This document shows, piece after piece, positions 40,533 through 48,791 of a DNA stretch of 64,000 bases. The DNA lies in contig NZ_JQSG02000003.1 in the NCBI RefSeq assembly GCF_000754095.2, positions 609,397 to 673,396 on the forward strand, written 5' to 3'. Numbering within the stretch: position 1 is the stretch's first letter; each line of letters begins with the position of its first letter. Below the pieces are notes generated by a model, which worked only from the letters and a program-made list of their open reading frames with translations, was not told where the DNA came from and searched no databases. The position numbers and the translations under genes were made by a program. The DNA comes from Acidihalobacter prosperus (GTDB lineage: Bacteria > Pseudomonadota > Gammaproteobacteria > DSM-5130 > Acidihalobacteraceae).

Positions 40533-41969
40533 TCAGAACACCGCGGTCAGCTCCAGATCGATTCGGTTGCCCATCGAATTGGCGATCTGCTGCGCGTTGT
40601 TGCGCTGCACCGGATTGGTGATCGCATCCGGGTGCGGCACGTCCAGCTTCTGGATTGCGTAGTTCAGGGTCAGGCGCGTGCTCTTGGTGAGGAAGTACTG
40701 CGCTCCCAGCGTCCAGGTCTTGAAGTCGCGTTCCAGCGCCGCGTTGTTGGTCAGGCGGTTGTACTGGTCGTAGCGCAGCTGCAGCTGGACGTTGTGGGTG
40801 ACGTAGTAACCGCCCTGGATGTACGCACCCCAGGCCTTGTTGTCGCTGCCGGGATAGATGGTCCACTGGGTCAGGTTGTTGTATCCACCCAGAGCCTGGC
40901 CGGAGTACTGGCTGGCTACGGACGCGTCGTACTGGAACGGCGCGGGCGCGAGGATCCATCCACTTGCCTGCATGTAGCCGGCGTGCATGATGTAACCGCC
41001 GGCCTGACGCTGGTGCCGCCCGTATTCGCCGCCCACACCCCAGCGGTTGAGCTTGTAGGTGCCGATCTGATCGATCTTGCGCTGGCCGTTGTGGAACCAC
41101 ACCCAAGCGCCAGCGTCGTTGCGATAGGCGCCCTTGCCGCCGAACACGTAGGACATGCGCAGCATGCCGTAGGTGTCCATGCCGTTGTTGTTGTTGGTGG
41201 CGGTGATCGGCCCACCGTTGCCCACCATGAAGGCGTAGGCATATTCCCAGGGGCCGCGGTCGAACCAGTTGAATACCTTGAGGCCGATATCGCGATACGA
41301 GCCATAACCCGTCACATTGCTACTCGAAGGAATGAACTGGTATCCGCCATTGCCCGCCGATGTCACCTGCGTCTTGGGATCGATGAAGCGTTCCAGCGTA
41401 TTCTGCAGCGAAGCCGTACTGTAGTTGACGAACGGCAGCACCGGGATGCCCACGCGCGACTCCCAGCTGCCCGGCACCTTCTGCAGGCCCAGCGAGAAAC
41501 GCACCAGCTTGGGATCGGCATTCCAGGTCACGAAGGCATCCGAAACCACCGGGTGCTGGCCGGCGAAGTAGGTCATGCCATTGTTGCCGAACTCGGTCAG
41601 GAAGAAGTAGTCGACCTTGTTGTCCAGCGGCGACAGCGTGCCGCGCACGCCGATACGGCCGCGCAGCAGGTTGAAGCTGTTGGTGGAACTCAGATTCGGA
41701 CCGATCAGGTTGAAGTTCGGCACCGCGCCGTTGAAGGCCCGGACCGAAGGTGGTCCCTGCAGGCCGCTGACGGTATTGCCGCTGGTGGTCGCATAGTCGG
41801 GCTGGATGAAGCCCCAGACATTGACCGGCTTCGACACGCCCGGGGGCGAGGTATTGTAGAGCTGCAGCCAGTTGGCCGCCTCGGCGGATTGCGCCGCAAG
41901 GCCCATGGACGCGGCGACGGCCGCGGCCAGCATGCTCTTGGCGAAGACGGTCTTCGAAGGATTTTTCAT
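40533..41969 (-). CDS. Outer-membrane porin, phosphate-selective-porin-like
   Basis: 478 residues from the ATG at 41969 with GGGGAG five bases upstream. Signal peptide about 1-30 (ends near AQSAEA), then alternating aromatic beta-strands (WGFIQPDY, LRGRIGVRGT, YFFLTEFG, YIQGGYYVTHNVQLQLRYDQYNRL) ending in a C-terminal Phe (LELTAVF), as in outer-membrane barrels. It should form a channel for small solutes. The DsrE gene is 62 bases upstream, so the two are probably one operon. Confidence 0.82.
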   Translation of the reverse strand: MKNPSKTVFAKSMLAAAVAASMGLAAQSAEAANWLQLYNTSPPGVSKPVNVWGFIQPDYATTSGNTVSGLQGPPSVRAFNGAVPNFNLIGPNLSSTNSFNLLRGRIGVRGTLSPLDNKVDYFFLTEFGNNGMTYFAGQHPVVSDAFVTWNADPKLVRFSLGLQKVPGSWESRVGIPVLPFVNYSTASLQNTLERFIDPKTQVTSAGNGGYQFIPSSSNVTGYGSYRDIGLKVFNWFDRGPWEYAYAFMVGNGGPITATNNNNGMDTYGMLRMSYVFGGKGAYRNDAGAWVWFHNGQRKIDQIGTYKLNRWGVGGEYGRHQRQAGGYIMHAGYMQASGWILAPAPFQYDASVASQYSGQALGGYNNLTQWTIYPGSDNKAWGAYIQGGYYVTHNVQLQLRYDQYNRLTNNAALERDFKTWTLGAQYFLTKSTRLTLNYAIQKLDVPHPDAITNPVQRNNAQQIANSMGNRIDLELTAVF

Positions 41970-42031
41970 AGACACTCCCCTGATCTCGAATTGTTATGAA
42001 CGAAATGAAACCCGGAACGACGCGCCGTCGA

Positions 42032-42502
42032 TCAGGGCTTGATCAGAATGTAGCCATGCTGCACGAGATCCACGATGCGCGCGGCGCCCGCCGGGACCAC
42101 CTCGGCCTCGGGATTCAGCTTCGGGGTGTAGCCGAGCTGTTTGGAGAAATTCATCAGCGTGTTGTGGCAGGCGTCGAACTTGATGCCGTAGTTCTTGGCC
42201 ATCTCGATGACACGCTTGCGGTTCACGTTGTTGTCGAGCAGCAGGCGCAGGCCGGGCCCGAAGGCCACAATTTCAAGATCGACCTTGTCCGGGCCGTAGT
42301 AGCGGGCCAGATTGGCCGCCACATTGAGAACCAAGGTCTGCTTCATCGGGTTGGGGTCGCTGATCTGCAGCACGATATGGTGGGTGGCGAAAGGCTTCTG
42401 TTCGATGGGCGGCATCTTCACTTCGGCGGAAGCCGGGCCGGCCGCCAGCAGGCCCAGTGACACCAGCGCCAGCAGCGCCCTGAAAACAAATCGACTCATC
42501 AT
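42032..42502 (-). CDS. Periplasmic DsrE-family protein
   Basis: 156 residues; GGGAG upstream of the ATG at 42502. A signal peptide (1-26, ends near GPASA) is followed by a DsrE/DsrF-like domain: HHIVLQISDPNPMKQTLVLNVAANLARYYG, LEIVAFGPGLRLLL and a single Cys112 in FDACHNTL, the position of the sulfur-carrier Cys in DsrE relatives. It resembles the periplasmic half of the anti-sigma factor on the other side of the divergent promoter region. Role (sulfur or oxidant sensing or carriage) is inferred. Confidence 0.8.
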   Translation of the reverse strand: MMSRFVFRALLALVSLGLLAAGPASAEVKMPPIEQKPFATHHIVLQISDPNPMKQTLVLNVAANLARYYGPDKVDLEIVAFGPGLRLLLDNNVNRKRVIEMAKNYGIKFDACHNTLMNFSKQLGYTPKLNPEAEVVPAGAARIVDLVQHGYILIKP

Positions 42503-42896
42503 GGTGATCTCCCTCTGGATAGCGATACTTATCGTCTTTTCTTACAACCGCACGCCATCGCACGCGGTGTGAGGCAATCCTCAATGAACCAAGATGCGCC
42601 CCGTTTAACACTTATTCCACAAATTCTTCACAAAAACTCACAAATATTATTATCTCAATATAATCAATGTGTTGTGATTTCAAAAAAACAACAAGAGCGA
42701 ACTACAAATGCACTATTTAATTAAATAATTAAATATAAATTCATAATATTAATAACTGTTGATTTACTCACGCACGCCATCCCCATCGACTGCCCGCGCG
42801 CCGCCGCGACAATGCGCCGCCCCCCGGCGGGCGCCGCCCGTGGGAATAACTTCGGTATACTGGACGTCTTAATGTCTGGAAACGAGCCCGAAACCC
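42503..42896. other. Divergent regulatory region with an AT-rich island
   Basis: 394 bases between the DsrE/porin operon and the ECF sigma gene. 42600-42780 is very AT-rich (TTTAATTAAATAATTAAAT and TTCATAATATTAATAACTG) inside an otherwise GC-rich genome, as expected for bent or easily melted promoter DNA or a nucleoid-protein site. The right end holds the ECF promoter candidate. Confidence 0.55.
42843..42872 (+). promoter_or_regulatory. Candidate ECF-type promoter of the sigma-factor gene
   Basis: GGAATAAC at 42843-42850 resembles the ECF -35 (GGAAC-type), and GTCTTAA at 42866-42872 the -10, with usual spacing; the sigma gene starts 24 bases further on. A sigma70-like TATACT at 42856-42861 also occurs. 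Autoregulation would be typical but is not proven. Confidence 0.4.
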
Positions 42897-43466
42897 ATGG
42901 ACACGCCAGGTATGTTTGACCTCGTCAGCCTATCCAGCCAGATCAAGAAGCGTATCGCCGAAGAGCGGCCGCGCCTCTACCGCATGGCCTATGCCTGGTG
43001 TTGCGACCCCACGCTTGCCGACGATCTGGCACAGGAGGCCATCTCCAAGGGCCTGCAGAAGGCCGGGCAACTGCGCGAGGCCGAACGACTGCAAAGCTGG
43101 CTCTACGCGATACTCCACAACTGCTGGCGCACGCATCTGCGTCGGCAGCGCCCGGATCAGCCTCTCGACGAGGAAGCCTTTCCCTGCGACGACTGCCCGG
43201 AAACGGTCAATCAGCGGCAGCAGGTCGTGGACCGCGTGCGCGCGGCCATCAAGGCGCTGCCCCTCGGTCAGCGCGAGGTGATTACCCTGGTCGACCTCAA
43301 CGGTTTCGCCTATGCGGAAGTGGCACGTATCTTGGATATACCCATTGGCACCGTCATGAGCCGTCTCAGCAGAGCGCGTCAGGCCCTGCTGGTCGCCCTG
43401 GCGGACGTACAACAGCAATCTCCGCAGACGTCATCTCCACGCGCCTCACTCAGAAGGGTCAAGTGA
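42897..43466 (+). CDS. ECF-type RNA polymerase sigma factor
   Basis: 189 residues. Region 2 (RPRLYRMAYAWCCDPTLADDLAQEAISKGLQ and LYAILHNCWRTHLRR) and region 4 (ALPLGQREVITLVDLNGFAYAEVARILDIPIGTVMSRLSRARQAL) are complete. It overlaps the anti-sigma gene by ATGA, so the two are translated together, a standard sigma/anti-sigma arrangement. Confidence 0.93.
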   Translation: MDTPGMFDLVSLSSQIKKRIAEERPRLYRMAYAWCCDPTLADDLAQEAISKGLQKAGQLREAERLQSWLYAILHNCWRTHLRRQRPDQPLDEEAFPCDDCPETVNQRQQVVDRVRAAIKALPLGQREVITLVDLNGFAYAEVARILDIPIGTVMSRLSRARQALLVALADVQQQSPQTSSPRASLRRVK

Positions 43467-44206
43467 TGAACACGGGATTTCGTGACGATCCTCGACTGCA
43501 CGCCTACATCGACAACGAACTCGATGTGGACGATCGTGCCGAGCTGCTCGAAACGATGTATGAGGATACGGACCTGCGCAATCAGGTCTGCGAACTGCGC
43601 CGCATCAAGGATCTGGTCCAGCAGGCTTACTTCGTCCCACCTCCACCGCCGCAGGCACACGCAAGCCGGCGCGGCTTCGGCCAACGTCGGTCCATCGCGG
43701 CCTGCTGCGCGGTACTCGCGCTGATGCTGCTGAGTTTTGCCGGCGGCTGGCTGGTCCACTCGCGCGAGGACGCGGCCTCGCTGACCGACCACCTCGCCGG
43801 ACTCGGCGCCATCCGTCTCGACACAGGTCTGGGCACGGAGGCGGCACCGCCGCGGGTGCTGCTGCATGTGGCCACGGACAATCCGGTCAAGTTCGCGGGT
43901 ACCCTGCAGCAGGCCAGCTATCTGCTGAACAAGGGTGGCCGAGATGGCATCGAGGTCGAAGTCGTCGCCAATGCCGGCGGGCTCAAGCTGCTGGAGGCCA
44001 ACGACAACTCCGATTATGCGACCCGCATCCGCGAAATGATGCGCAAGTATCCGAACCTGCATTTCGTCGCCTGCGGCATCACGCTGCACCATCTTGAGGC
44101 AGCAGGCGTGCCGGTCGACCTGATACGGCACGTACGGGTTGCGCCTTCAGCCGTGGAAGAGGTGGTCAAACGCCTGCGCCAGGGCTGGATGTACGTCAAC
44201 ATCTAA
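43466..44206 (+). CDS. Anti-sigma factor fused to a periplasmic DsrE-like domain
   Basis: 246 residues. A short cytoplasmic part (DPRLHAYIDNELD, like zinc-less anti-sigma N-termini) binds sigma; one transmembrane helix is at about 75-97; the periplasmic part (about 128-246) is DsrE-like: VLLHVATDNPVKFAGTLQQASYLL, VEVVANAGGLKLL and a Cys203 in FVACGITL at the same place as Cys112 of the neighbouring secreted DsrE protein. This domain combination is unusual and suggests that sulfur or redox state in the periplasm controls the sigma factor. That is inference. Confidence 0.82.
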   Translation: MNTGFRDDPRLHAYIDNELDVDDRAELLETMYEDTDLRNQVCELRRIKDLVQQAYFVPPPPPQAHASRRGFGQRRSIAACCAVLALMLLSFAGGWLVHSREDAASLTDHLAGLGAIRLDTGLGTEAAPPRVLLHVATDNPVKFAGTLQQASYLLNKGGRDGIEVEVVANAGGLKLLEANDNSDYATRIREMMRKYPNLHFVACGITLHHLEAAGVPVDLIRHVRVAPSAVEEVVKRLRQGWMYVNI

Positions 44207-44235: not shown

Positions 44236-45291
44236 CTAGGCCAGGTAGGCACGGAAGGCCTCTTTGTGCGTGCTGTGGGTGTAGGCTTCGTGCCCCTCGA
44301 TGACGCCGGCGTCGACCAGCCGGCGGAGATCGCCGTCCATGGTCTGCATGCCCACCAACGCGCCGCTCTGCATCGCAGTTTCCAGCTGTCCGACCTTGCC
44401 GTCCCTAATCAGGCTCGACACGGCTGCGGTATTGACCAGCACCTCTGTGGCAGCAACCCGTCCAGAACCCTCGGCACGGCGCACGAGCTGCTGCGACACC
44501 ACGCCGCGCAGGGACGTCGAAAGCATGATCCGGACCTGCGACTGCTTACCGGCGGGAAATACGTTGATCAACCGGTCCACGGTGAGATCCGCCCGCCGCG
44601 TATGCAGGGTGCCGAGCACCAGGATACCGGTCTCCGCGGCGGTGACCGCCAGCGCAATGGTTTCGTGATCGCGCAGTTCGCCCACCAGAATCACGTCGGG
44701 GTCCTCGCGCAGCGCCGAGCGCAGTGCGGCCGCGAAGCTCGGCGTGTGCTCGCCGACCTCGCGCTGGCTGATCAGACTACGCTTGCGCGAATGCACGAAC
44801 TCGATGGGGTCCTCGATGGTGAGGATGTGGCCACGCCGCTTGGAATTGATAAAATCGACCATCGCCGCCAAGGTGGTCGACTTGCCCGAGCCGGTCTTGC
44901 CGGTCACCAGCACCAGCCCCTGCTTGTGCTGACAGAGGCTGCCCAGCACCGGCGGCAGGTCTAGCGCCTCCAGCGATCTCGGCACATGAGGGATCGCCCG
45001 CATGACCAGGCCAAGGCCGCCGAGATGGCGGAAGAGATTGACCCGGAAACGCGCCTGATCGGCCATTTGATACGCGAAATCGACTCCGTCCTCGCGCTCG
45101 AACCGCGCCCGGGCATGCTCGCCCAGCAGCTCGCCCGCCATGGTTTCGATTTCCTCGGCGGGTAGCGGGCTGTCGGATACGGCCTGAAGTTCGCCGTCCA
45201 GTCGCATCCGGGGACGCTGCCCCGCAATCAGGTGCATGTCGGAACCGCCGCGCTGCAGCAAATCCTCCAGCCAGCGATCCACGCGGCTCAC
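44236..45291 (-). CDS. PilT/PilU-type twitching ATPase
   Basis: 351 residues. Walker A GKTGSGKSTTL, Asp box TIEDPIEFVH, Walker B-like VILVGELRDHETI and His box GTLHTRRAD of type II/IV secretion ATPases. It is likely PilU-like, pairing with the PilT-like protein two bases upstream. It would power pilus retraction on the inner membrane face. Confidence 0.88.
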   Translation of the reverse strand: MSRVDRWLEDLLQRGGSDMHLIAGQRPRMRLDGELQAVSDSPLPAEEIETMAGELLGEHARARFEREDGVDFAYQMADQARFRVNLFRHLGGLGLVMRAIPHVPRSLEALDLPPVLGSLCQHKQGLVLVTGKTGSGKSTTLAAMVDFINSKRRGHILTIEDPIEFVHSRKRSLISQREVGEHTPSFAAALRSALREDPDVILVGELRDHETIALAVTAAETGILVLGTLHTRRADLTVDRLINVFPAGKQSQVRIMLSTSLRGVVSQQLVRRAEGSGRVAATEVLVNTAAVSSLIRDGKVGQLETAMQSGALVGMQTMDGDLRRLVDAGVIEGHEAYTHSTHKEAFRAYLA

Positions 45292-45293
45292 GC

Positions 45294-46388
45294 TCAGCCC
45301 CCGGCCAGGCCGACGCGCGGCAGCAACGATGCGTCGGTCACGAAGCGCTGGAATGCCTTTTTATCCTGCGCGTAGAGATAGGCGTCGTCCGGATCGATCA
45401 ATTTGCGCTGGATCCCGTCGAGCAGACCCTGGTCAAGCAACTGCATGCCCGCCTCGCGTCCGGTCTGCATGACCGAGGGGATTTGATGCGTCTTGTCGCT
45501 GAGCAGCATCTGCGCGACCGCGGGCGTCATGGCCAGGGATTCCACCACCACGCGACGTCCGCCCCCCTCGGCCGAACGCACCAGCACCTGGGAGATGACC
45601 CCTCGCAGATTGTTCGCCAGGAAACTTTTGCCCTGCTCGCGCTGCTCGGCGGGCAAGGCGTCGATGATCCGGTCGATGGTCTTGACCGCCGTGGTGGTAT
45701 GCAGCGTGGCCAGCACGAGATGGCCGGTTTCGGCGGCGACCATGGCCATCATGATGGAGTCGGGATCACGCAGCTCGCCGACCAGGATCACGTCGGGGTC
45801 CTCGCGCAGCGCCGAACGCAGACCTTCGCTGAACCCGGGCACATGGGTACCGATCTCGCGCTGGACGATCTGCGCCTTGCGGCTCTCATGGATGAATTCG
45901 ATCGGGTCTTCGAGCGTGATCACGTTCAGTGCATCCTGCCCGTTGATGAGATCGAGCATGGCCGCCAGGGTGGTGGATTTACCCGTGCCGGTCGAGCCGG
46001 TCACCAGCACCATGCCCTGACGATGCTCGGCCAGACGATGAACCACGGGCGGCAGGCCCAGATCACCAAGGCTCGGCACGAGCGAAGGGATGTGTCTGAA
46101 CGAGGCGCCGATACCGGTCGCCTTGCGAAACACATTGGCGCGAAAGCGGCCGACGCCCTCGGCCATGTAGGAAAAATCGAGATCCTCGCCCAAGCGGTAG
46201 CGCTGCTTGAGATTCTCGCTGAGGATTTCGAAGACGTAACCCAGCAGCTCGCGATCGCCAAGTTCCCTGAAACGAATCGGCATGATTTCGCCGTTCATGC
46301 GCAGCAACGGCGGCGAACCCACCGCCAGATGCACGTCGGAACACCCCTGTTCGCGACCGAGTTTCAAGAAGGCATCAATACGCGCCAC
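45294..46388 (-). CDS. PilT-type twitching ATPase
   Basis: 364 residues. GSTGTGKSTTL (Walker A), LEDPIEFIHES (Asp box), ILVGELRDPDSIM (Walker B) and ATLHTTTAVKTIDR (His box) are intact, and the N-terminus begins IDAFLKLGREQGCSDVHLAVGSPP. It is a second retraction-type ATPase adjacent to the PilU-like one, downstream of the HEAT-kinase gene. Confidence 0.88.
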   Translation of the reverse strand: MARIDAFLKLGREQGCSDVHLAVGSPPLLRMNGEIMPIRFRELGDRELLGYVFEILSENLKQRYRLGEDLDFSYMAEGVGRFRANVFRKATGIGASFRHIPSLVPSLGDLGLPPVVHRLAEHRQGMVLVTGSTGTGKSTTLAAMLDLINGQDALNVITLEDPIEFIHESRKAQIVQREIGTHVPGFSEGLRSALREDPDVILVGELRDPDSIMMAMVAAETGHLVLATLHTTTAVKTIDRIIDALPAEQREQGKSFLANNLRGVISQVLVRSAEGGGRRVVVESLAMTPAVAQMLLSDKTHQIPSVMQTGREAGMQLLDQGLLDGIQRKLIDPDDAYLYAQDKKAFQRFVTDASLLPRVGLAGG

Positions 46389-46406: not shown

Positions 46407-48791
46407 TCACAGCCGGTGATCGTGCATAAAGGGCTCCAGCGTACGCCGCACCTCGGACATGTTGCGGAAACGTTTGTCCGGGTCGACGGCCATCATGCGG
46501 GCGACGAAAGCACTCAACGTGCGTGAGATTTCGGGGTTGCGCTCGTGCAGTGGCGCGGCGCCACCCTGCACATGCTGATACATCACCGCTACGTTGTCCT
46601 CACCGCTGTAGGGCGAGCTGCCGGCGAGCATTTCATACAGAATCACGCCGAGGCTGTAGATGTCCGTGCGCGCGTCGATGGTCTTGCCGAGCACCTGCTC
46701 GGGCGCCATGTAGCGGGGCGTGCCGACCAGCAGGCCGGTTCGCGTCAAACGCGTATCGGTGCTGTCGACCGCAGCGGCGACACCGAAATCCACGATCTTC
46801 ACCAGATTGTGTTCGTTGGTGAGGATGTTGCCGGGCTTGAGATCGCGATGCACGATGCCGATCGCATGCGCCGCGGTCATGCCCGCGGCGACTTCATGCG
46901 CGATGTGCAACGCCCGCTCCAGGCTGAGTGGCACCTGCGCCTTGACCTCGGCGGACAGGGCCGTTGAAGGGAAGTATTCCATGCTGATCACGTACAAGCC
47001 GCCCAGCATGAAAAAATCGTAGATCCGAATGACGTTGCGGTGCTCGATGCGCTTGGCGAAATGATGTTCGCGCTGGAAGCGCCGCACCATGTTGTCGTCC
47101 ACGGCCATCTGCGGATGCAGAAACTTGAGGATAACCTGCTCGCCGCGCACCAAATCCTCGGCCAGCGTCACCGTGCCGAAGGCACCGCGCCCGATACGCC
47201 GGATATGGCGGTATCGCTCGCCCAACAGCTCGCCTGCGCGCAGCAGCTTGAGCTTGATCGGCGGCCCCTCGATGACCGGCACCTCCGCTTCCGCGCTCCC
47301 GGCTTCCGAGGCATCCCCGGTCATCGGCGTGGCATAGGTTGCGGCGGCCGCACCCGGTGCGGCGTAGCGTTCACCTAGGCGGATCGCACAGTCGCGCGCC
47401 AGTTCGCGCACTTCGTCTTCCGGCGCGCTCTGGGCCGCTTTCTCCAGGCGCCCGCGGATTGTCGGAGCATGCGCCGCATCGGCCAGTTCCACGAGCACCA
47501 GCATCGCTTCGCTGCGCACCGCCGGCTCCGGCCGGTTGAGCTGCGCCGATACGGCCTCGATCTGCTCCACGCCACCCAGACGCATCAGTGCCCGCAGCAC
47601 TGCGACCGCGGTCGAATCGTCACGCTCAAGCAGCGGCATCAGCGCCGGCACGGCGGCCTTGTTGCCCAGCTTGGCGAGCGCATCGACGGCTCTTTCGCGC
47701 ACCCACCAGTCCGAATCCGCCAACGCATCGATCAAATGCCGGAACGAGGCCTCGTCCTTGATCGAGTTCATGATCTCCACCGCGGCACGACGGATGAATT
47801 CATCGTCGTCACGCAGCAGGGAAACGACCGCCTGAATCACTCGGCTGCCGCCGATTCGAGCCAGGGCGTCCGCAGCACGCGCGCGCACCCACCAGTCGTC
47901 GTCACGAATGGCCCGGAGCAGCGTCTTGATCGCCGTGGTATCCCCGATTTCGTTGAGGATCTCGACGCCGGCACGCCTGACATACTCCGACTCGTCGCGC
48001 AGGATGTCGATCAGGTGGGTGAGTGTCTCGGGGTCCTGCATCCGGATGATGGTTTCCACCGCGCGCCCCTGTATCGACATGTCGCTGTCGCGCAGCAGGC
48101 GAAAGGCGGTTTCGATATCCAGTGCACCGGGATGGGCCGCGAGACCTTCGAGGGCGAGCTGGCGCACCGTCTTGCCCGGGTCGTCGAGCAACTGGCGCAG
48201 AGCCTCATGCGCCTGCGGATGATCGAATCGCCCCAATACACGCGCCACGCCCTGTCGAATCTGCAGATCACGGGCGTTGGCGCGGCTCGCCAGCTCGGGA
48301 ATCAACGACGGCTCCGCAATCTCCGCGAGCAGACGGAAGGCGATATTGCGTTCGCTGGGGTCCAGGTGGCTGATCTGACGCAACACGCCGGCGGCATCGA
48401 GCGCCTTGCCCTGCGCCGACAGGATATCCAGCAACGCCGCCTTGGGGACCGCCGGGTCCGCCAGAAACTCCAACAGATGATTGGGGTTATAACCCCGTCC
48501 ACCACGCAGGATCTCGACCGCTGCCTGGGCCAGGCGCGGCTCGCCGGCGGCCAGCACACGGTGGAAATGCGGTAGGCTGTCGTCGTCCAGCAGCCGCGTC
48601 AGAATCTGGACGAGCCGGCCGCGATTGGCGCTTTCGCCGGACGCCAGCAGGCGAATCAGCCGAGGTATGGACTCGCCCGCGCACTCGCGCAACTTCTGCA
48701 GGGCCTCCACACCCTCCACCGAGCTGATCTGCTTGATAGCCAGCATCTGCGCGATGCGTCGTTCGGTGCGGAAATCTCGGAACAGACTCAT
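46407..48791 (-). CDS. HEAT-repeat protein with C-terminal Ser/Thr protein kinase
   Basis: 794 residues. About residues 30-470 are tandem HEAT-like repeats (for example DDDWWVRARAADALARIG, DSDWWVRERAVDALAKLG, DDEFIRRAAVEIMNSI). A kinase domain follows (about 520-785) with IGRGAFGTVTLAED (Gly loop), VILKF (Lys), HRDLKPGNIL, VDFGV and APEQVLG. HEAT arrays bind partners, so the kinase is probably recruited to a target. Being upstream of two PilT-type genes suggests regulation of pili or motility. No extracellular part or transmembrane helix is visible. Confidence 0.85.
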   Translation of the reverse strand: MSLFRDFRTERRIAQMLAIKQISSVEGVEALQKLRECAGESIPRLIRLLASGESANRGRLVQILTRLLDDDSLPHFHRVLAAGEPRLAQAAVEILRGGRGYNPNHLLEFLADPAVPKAALLDILSAQGKALDAAGVLRQISHLDPSERNIAFRLLAEIAEPSLIPELASRANARDLQIRQGVARVLGRFDHPQAHEALRQLLDDPGKTVRQLALEGLAAHPGALDIETAFRLLRDSDMSIQGRAVETIIRMQDPETLTHLIDILRDESEYVRRAGVEILNEIGDTTAIKTLLRAIRDDDWWVRARAADALARIGGSRVIQAVVSLLRDDDEFIRRAAVEIMNSIKDEASFRHLIDALADSDWWVRERAVDALAKLGNKAAVPALMPLLERDDSTAVAVLRALMRLGGVEQIEAVSAQLNRPEPAVRSEAMLVLVELADAAHAPTIRGRLEKAAQSAPEDEVRELARDCAIRLGERYAAPGAAAATYATPMTGDASEAGSAEAEVPVIEGPPIKLKLLRAGELLGERYRHIRRIGRGAFGTVTLAEDLVRGEQVILKFLHPQMAVDDNMVRRFQREHHFAKRIEHRNVIRIYDFFMLGGLYVISMEYFPSTALSAEVKAQVPLSLERALHIAHEVAAGMTAAHAIGIVHRDLKPGNILTNEHNLVKIVDFGVAAAVDSTDTRLTRTGLLVGTPRYMAPEQVLGKTIDARTDIYSLGVILYEMLAGSSPYSGEDNVAVMYQHVQGGAAPLHERNPEISRTLSAFVARMMAVDPDKRFRNMSEVRRTLEPFMHDHRL

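Follow-up and report, generated by a model that had tools for sequence, protein, structure and literature searches.

A periplasmic DsrE domain on an anti-sigma factor and its predicted link to the Sox regulon of gammaproteobacterial sulfur oxidizers

Organization of the Acidihalobacter prosperus locus

The 64 kb stretch of the Acidihalobacter prosperus genome analysed here (the window) contains two divergent operons, one encoding a sigma factor and an anti-sigma factor and the other a secreted DsrE-family protein and a porin (Table 1). The sigma protein matches Sigma70_r2 (6e-12) and Sigma70_r4_2 (2e-16) in Pfam and lies above the NCBIfam cut-off for sigma70-ECF; it has regions 2 and 4 only, without regions 1.1 and 3, as expected of an ECF factor. 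The start codon of the anti-sigma gene overlaps the sigma stop codon by one base (TGATG), and its position directly 3' of the sigma gene, together with a single membrane helix in the product, is as expected of a class I membrane anti-sigma factor. The protein is composed of cytoplasmic helices (residues ~9-54), a membrane helix (73-93 in the structural model) and a DsrE domain (128-246), with a hydrophobic stretch at the place of the membrane helix also present in its aligned relatives (24 fusions). Because basic residues precede the helix, the DsrE domain is predicted to lie outside the cytoplasm. Its C203, within the sequence VACG, is the sole periplasmic cysteine, while C42, C80 and C81 fall in the cytoplasmic or membrane part. 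The initial annotation of this DNA had described the pair in the same terms, and the Pfam matches, the coordinates, the model and a direct reading of the protein bear it out.

Table 1. Genes and predicted promoters of the divergent locus (positions in the window)
Feature	Position	Strand	Basis
ECF sigma factor, 189 aa	42897-43466	+	Pfam Sigma70_r2/r4_2, NCBIfam sigma70-ECF
Anti-sigma factor with periplasmic DsrE domain, 246 aa	43466-44206	+	Sequence, alignment, model
Secreted DsrE-family protein, 156 aa, invariant Cys112	42032-42502	-	Sec signal peptide, profile, BLASTP
Outer-membrane porin, Porin_O_P/Porin_4-like (anion-porin-like)	40533-41975	-	Pfam, family matches
Predicted promoter of sigma/anti-sigma operon, GGAATAA-N15-CGTCTT	42843-42870	+	Motif
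Predicted promoter of DsrE/porin operon, GGAATAA-N15-CATCTT	42591-42618	-	Motif

The two halves of the anti-sigma factor are assigned with unequal strength. Both Pfam and NCBIfam fall below their cut-offs on the window protein alone (residues 128-246 against Pfam DsrE, E 0.06), and profile and fold searches were therefore used. A BLASTP comparison of the domain with the divergent secreted DsrE gives 8e-11 with the cysteines aligned, and profile-profile comparison of the two gives 99.8%. The anti-sigma family profile matches MTH1491 (PDB 1L1S) along the entire length of the domain (9e-22), and the AlphaFold model, with a pLDDT of ~90 in this part, is closest in fold to 1L1S (Z 16.7), followed by DsrE (2HY5_A, Z 12.1) and TusD (2D1P_A, Z 11.9). 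The DsrE fold of residues 128-246 (DsrE/DsrF-like, PF02635) is thus secure, as is the likeness to the secreted protein that had been proposed from the letters alone; the possibility that the C-terminal part folds as something else was checked and discarded. In the family-profile alignment, Cys203 aligns with the cysteine of MTH1491 and ST0148; an hhalign alignment to the TusD sequence was not significant, and a residue-level match of Cys203 to the active cysteine of TusD or DsrE is tentative at most. The N-terminal anti-sigma assignment is weaker than that of the DsrE domain, resting on consistent low-scoring matches, the operon position and helix 73-93: zf-HC2 is matched at E<=0.01 in 8/24 relatives (best 0.0012) and RseA_N in 1/24, the NCBIfam anti-sigma match to the window protein is weak (0.005, below cut-off) and the family profile matches MucA at E 0.71. 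The HxxxCxxC motif of zinc-binding anti-sigma factors (ZAS) is absent from the window protein, the cytoplasmic part of which has C42 alone.

The divergent DsrE-family protein has a typical Sec signal peptide, a single cysteine (C112) and a match just under the Pfam cut-off for DsrE; the porin gene follows ~57 bases downstream. Taken alone, the window porin matches Porin_4 weakly, and Porin_O_P is matched by seven of ten members of its family (best 7e-12), making an anion channel plausible; a search by sequence for a solved relative of the porin found none. No DsrF/DsrH-like (TusC/TusB) partner was seen among the open reading frames at the window locus. These results uphold the initial reading of a secreted DsrE and a porin divergent from the sigma gene, with aligned cysteines in the two DsrE domains. 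Across the 26 neighbourhoods examined, the sigma gene is flanked by a divergent DsrE gene, mostly then by a porin, in 12, and a second type of secreted DsrE lies 3' of the anti-sigma gene on the same strand in three others. The neighbours co-occur in many genera, as the initial model required. A second and clearly different subfamily of secreted DsrE is encoded 3' of the anti-sigma gene, on its strand, at loci that lack the divergent DsrE (L042:6516-6962, L049:5960-6460, L052:6768-7211). The genome from which the window derives (3.4 Mb) has eleven DsrE-family (PF02635) matches in all. Beyond the locus, the window encodes, to judge by eye, two PilT/PilU-like ATPases (44236-46388) adjoining the gene for a 794-residue protein with apparent HEAT-like repeats and a Ser/Thr protein kinase domain (46407-48791, minus strand).

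A candidate promoter motif, GGAATAA-N15-CRTCTT, occurs exactly twice in the window, at the two divergent promoters, compared with 0.00 sites expected from shuffles. In related loci, allowing up to two mismatches, it is found upstream of the sigma gene in 19/24 (the window genome included; the other 5/24 are without a good match), upstream of the secreted DsrE gene in 13/16 and before both porin genes that lack a DsrE gene, compared with a median of ~4 mismatches in shuffled upstream regions. The sigma factor is thus predicted to be autoregulated from an ECF-type promoter, given that the motif precedes its own gene in most relatives; the suggestion that it drives the DsrE/porin operon or itself is matched by a predicted promoter before each operon. 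The divergent intergenic region (42501-42896) has 45% G+C, compared with 64% in the window, with a long A+T-rich middle between the promoters.

Distribution of the fusion and its linkage to sox genes

Other anti-sigma/DsrE fusions were sought, as the initial annotation had recommended. Full-length fusions were recovered in ~20 of 95 relatives searched, and an even draw of 274 genomes from the Gammaproteobacteria contained 55 with at least one full-length fusion; a phylum-wide search found the fusion in 3/299 genomes at E <= 1e-40, all from the same class. Among the hosts with names are Thiogranum, a Thiotrichaceae bacterium, an Acidihalobacter MAG and MAGs of betaproteobacteria. Cys203 is invariant in 24/24 fusions from ~20 genera, where it is one of merely five invariant alignment columns, and also in 14 fusion sequences that include named sulfur oxidizers such as Thiogranum (loci found with a four-sequence alignment and overlapping in part with the 24). 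In a phylogenetic tree, the anti-sigma DsrE domains and the secreted DsrE proteins fall on opposite sides of a branch with support 100/98, a split that fits a single ancient fusion. Two genomes carry two full-length fusions in tandem within 2.5 kb (G114:C22:8062-10394 and G230:C26:83571-85971), and a further genome (G084) has three separate fusions.

Within the whole window genome, the exact motif occurs at four sites: the two divergent promoters, a third site 205 bases upstream of soxXYZ and a fourth ~145 bases upstream of soxB. The downstream products are SoxX, SoxY, SoxZ and SoxB, all above NCBIfam cut-offs. A fifth site, with one mismatch, lies upstream of a YeeE/TsuA-like (YeeE/SoxT-like) gene that resembles the described SoxT importers (PMC11582611). 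The soxXYZ, soxB and YeeE-like placements are all repeated in two congeners with diverged spacers, some of the sites having one mismatch. A DsbG-like gene follows soxB. The fusion locus in the window is itself not adjacent to sox genes. In G000-G003 a further site, GGAATAG...CCCGTCAT, is conserved along with its spacer and was set aside as probably coding sequence.

The same association was found across the surveyed genomes, which were scanned one by one with the reversed pattern as control. The 55 fusion genomes contain 72 exact sites and 15 reversed-pattern sites (p 4e-10), and by this control chance would account for ~1/5 of all sites; 57 genomes with soxB and without the fusion are at background (13 exact and 17 reversed-pattern sites). 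When a site is counted with a gene that it precedes by <=450 bases on the same strand, about half of the sites in fusion genomes lie before genes for the sigma factor (14), the secreted DsrE (9-10), the porin (2), SoxB (5), SoxX (3) or a SoxT-like protein (1), two further sites precede SoxB-like nucleotidases, and the remaining half are without a recognised sulfur gene downstream. By comparison, 0/13 of the sites in soxB genomes without the fusion precede a sigma, DsrE, porin, soxB, soxX or SoxT-like gene. soxB itself is present in 53/55 fusion genomes and 58/219 of those without the fusion (p 8e-23, ignoring genome kinship; because the genomes are related, the p-values overstate their independence); one fusion genome without a soxB match, G059, is 93% complete.

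Gene order points in the same direction. Two genomes of another family (G159 and G269) encode the sigma factor, anti-sigma factor, soxX, soxY, soxZ and soxB as a single same-strand run with the motif at its head and a DsrE gene divergent from it, followed in G159 by a porin gene, and in G170 the soxXYZ-soxB-DsrE genes adjoin the sigma/anti-sigma pair. Elsewhere, in two genera (G087, G098), the gene for a large secreted SoxB-like protein of the 5'-nucleotidase family (~710-725 aa) runs divergently from the sigma gene and is preceded by the motif (L039:3286-5460, minus strand; L207, plus-strand site at 2565). Exact sites (L190 2552, L188 2555, L210 2504) also precede a gene for a DsbD-like thiol:disulfide protein and, in two genomes, genes for CutA-like proteins, both names having been read by eye from sequence.

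Proposed mechanism and competing explanations

Architecture, fold, invariant cysteine, conserved partners, promoter motif and sox linkage are all read from sequence, and on that footing a Sox regulon of the sigma/anti-sigma pair is well supported: across dozens of relatives, both the promoter sites and the order of the genes point to the pair as the switch of the Sox genes. The initial annotation had noted neither the promoters nor the sox link and had left the signal as sulfur or an oxidant; it can be narrowed to thiosulfate-derived sulfur because the motif precedes soxXYZ, soxB and the YeeE/SoxT-like gene and the pair heads a sox run. It is accordingly considered likely that the pair switches the Sox thiosulfate-oxidation regulon from across the membrane, sensing sulfane sulfur through Cys203. 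Thiosulfate or its sulfane-sulfur products would enter the periplasm and modify Cys203, possibly as a persulfide, an S-sulfonate or thiosulfonate, or a mixed disulfide formed with a sulfur carrier. Since the window protein has no other periplasmic cysteine, a disulfide within its periplasmic part is excluded. Modification would lead to release or degradation of the anti-sigma factor, and the freed sigma factor would transcribe from GGAATAA-N14/15-CRTCTT promoters. Predicted targets comprise its own operon, the secreted DsrE and anion porin, soxXYZ, soxB and the YeeE/SoxT-like sulfur importer. For the secreted DsrE, the probable role is that of a soluble sulfur carrier, loading the sensor or unloading it.

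The nearest competing explanation gives the DsrE domain a docking role in place of sensing through its cysteine, with the secreted DsrE forming a hetero-oligomer on it and the sulfur load of that partner setting the stability of the anti-sigma factor, in the way that RseB acts on RseA. It shares ground with the switch just described, which does not fix the role of the secreted DsrE, and is a possible though distinctly less probable reading. DsrE proteins do form oligomers, as in the DsrEFH and TusBCD assemblies, and no neighbour is more constant than the secreted DsrE, itself a predicted target of the pair; yet a domain used only for docking would hardly account for the invariance of C203, and several fusion loci (L034, L038, L044, L045) are without a DsrE neighbour. 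Alternatively, the same pair may control the sox regulon while its DsrE domain senses a metal or the periplasmic thiol oxidation or disulfide stress that sulfur oxidation causes. A single invariant cysteine would suit oxidant or metal sensing equally, and such a role fits the DsbG-like gene after soxB and, in other genomes, the sites before DsbD-like and CutA-like genes, but this explanation is unlikely: the regulon core is substrate oxidation rather than repair, DsrE (of DsrEFH) and TusD (of TusBCD) are known cytoplasmic sulfur carriers, and one periplasmic cysteine allows no internal disulfide switch. The fusion may also have another signal, such as acid, metal or general envelope thiol stress. 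A different ECF factor of sulfur oxidizers might instead use the GGAATAA-N15-CRTCTT promoters, with the pair merely nearby; this is very improbable despite the several ECF factors and several fusions of many genomes (three fusions in G084), since the motif does not rise above background where soxB occurs without the fusion, and in most relatives it is found immediately upstream of the sigma gene, as is usual for autoregulation.

If the preferred explanation, sulfane-sulfur sensing through Cys203, is correct, it would explain how sulfur oxidizers sense sulfur compounds outside the cytoplasm, and would represent the recruitment of a sulfur-carrier fold as a transmembrane sensor. External sulfur sensing by the regulators of sulfur-oxidizing bacteria has been termed poorly understood (PMC11582611). 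The analysis names a testable candidate for a periplasmic receptor, its sigma factor, a promoter sequence and predicted targets in many gammaproteobacterial sulfur oxidizers, with relatives of biomining acidophiles among the hosts. The novelty would reside in the sensor domain and the predicted Sox regulon, the ECF/anti-sigma logic being ordinary. A literature search found no published anti-sigma factor with a DsrE sensor; the main ECF reclassification paper lay outside its coverage, and a prior listing there is possible. The prospects appear evenly balanced that these proteins constitute a family of sulfur receptors spanning the membrane that has not been described before, with DsrE as the anti-sigma sensor, a cysteine that reads sulfane sulfur outside the cytoplasm, an ECF factor through which thiosulfate oxidation is turned on and a secreted DsrE as messenger or reset.

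Comparison with known systems

A comparable architecture is that of the RseA/RseB-RpoE system, in which a single-pass anti-sigma factor receives periplasmic signal input and has a secreted partner protein. The window pair shares the single-pass anti-sigma factor and the secreted partner; it differs in that the periplasmic part of RseA is not a DsrE domain, its signal is unfolded porins and LPS, and its regulon serves envelope repair. DsrE, TusD and MTH1491 (1L1S) resemble the sensor domain in fold and length, and MTH1491 also has a cysteine after a central strand, but these are soluble proteins, whereas here the domain is the membrane-anchored periplasmic part of a regulator.

ECF factors have been linked to sulfur oxidation in other lineages. 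Sinorhizobium meliloti RpoE1 and RpoE4 (ECF26), with their anti-sigma factors, mediate a sulfite/thiosulfate response controlling sorT; they resemble the window pair in combining an ECF factor with an adjacent anti-sigma factor and, as predicted for that pair, in responding to the metabolism of compounds that include thiosulfate (there, compounds generating sulfite) and in targeting a sulfur-oxidizing enzyme (PMC3511301). They differ in being alphaproteobacterial, in having anti-sigma factors that are mostly COG5662, with no DsrE domain mentioned, and in controlling a sulfite dehydrogenase rather than the Sox core (PMC3511301). In Arcobacter butzleri, an ECF factor, sigma2, was shown experimentally to activate soxC, D, X, Y, Z, A and B, but as part of a multi-target energy regulon and, by the paper's description, with no DsrE anti-sigma factor reported (PMC3445524). 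The ArsR-type repressors SoxR and sHdrR likewise place thiosulfate oxidation under the control of sulfane sulfur and are encoded with YeeE-like SoxT genes; as described, they are cytoplasmic DNA-binding repressors for which SoxT imports the signal, in contrast to the periplasmic sensor and sigma factor predicted here (PMC10451225, PMC12423496, PMC11582611).
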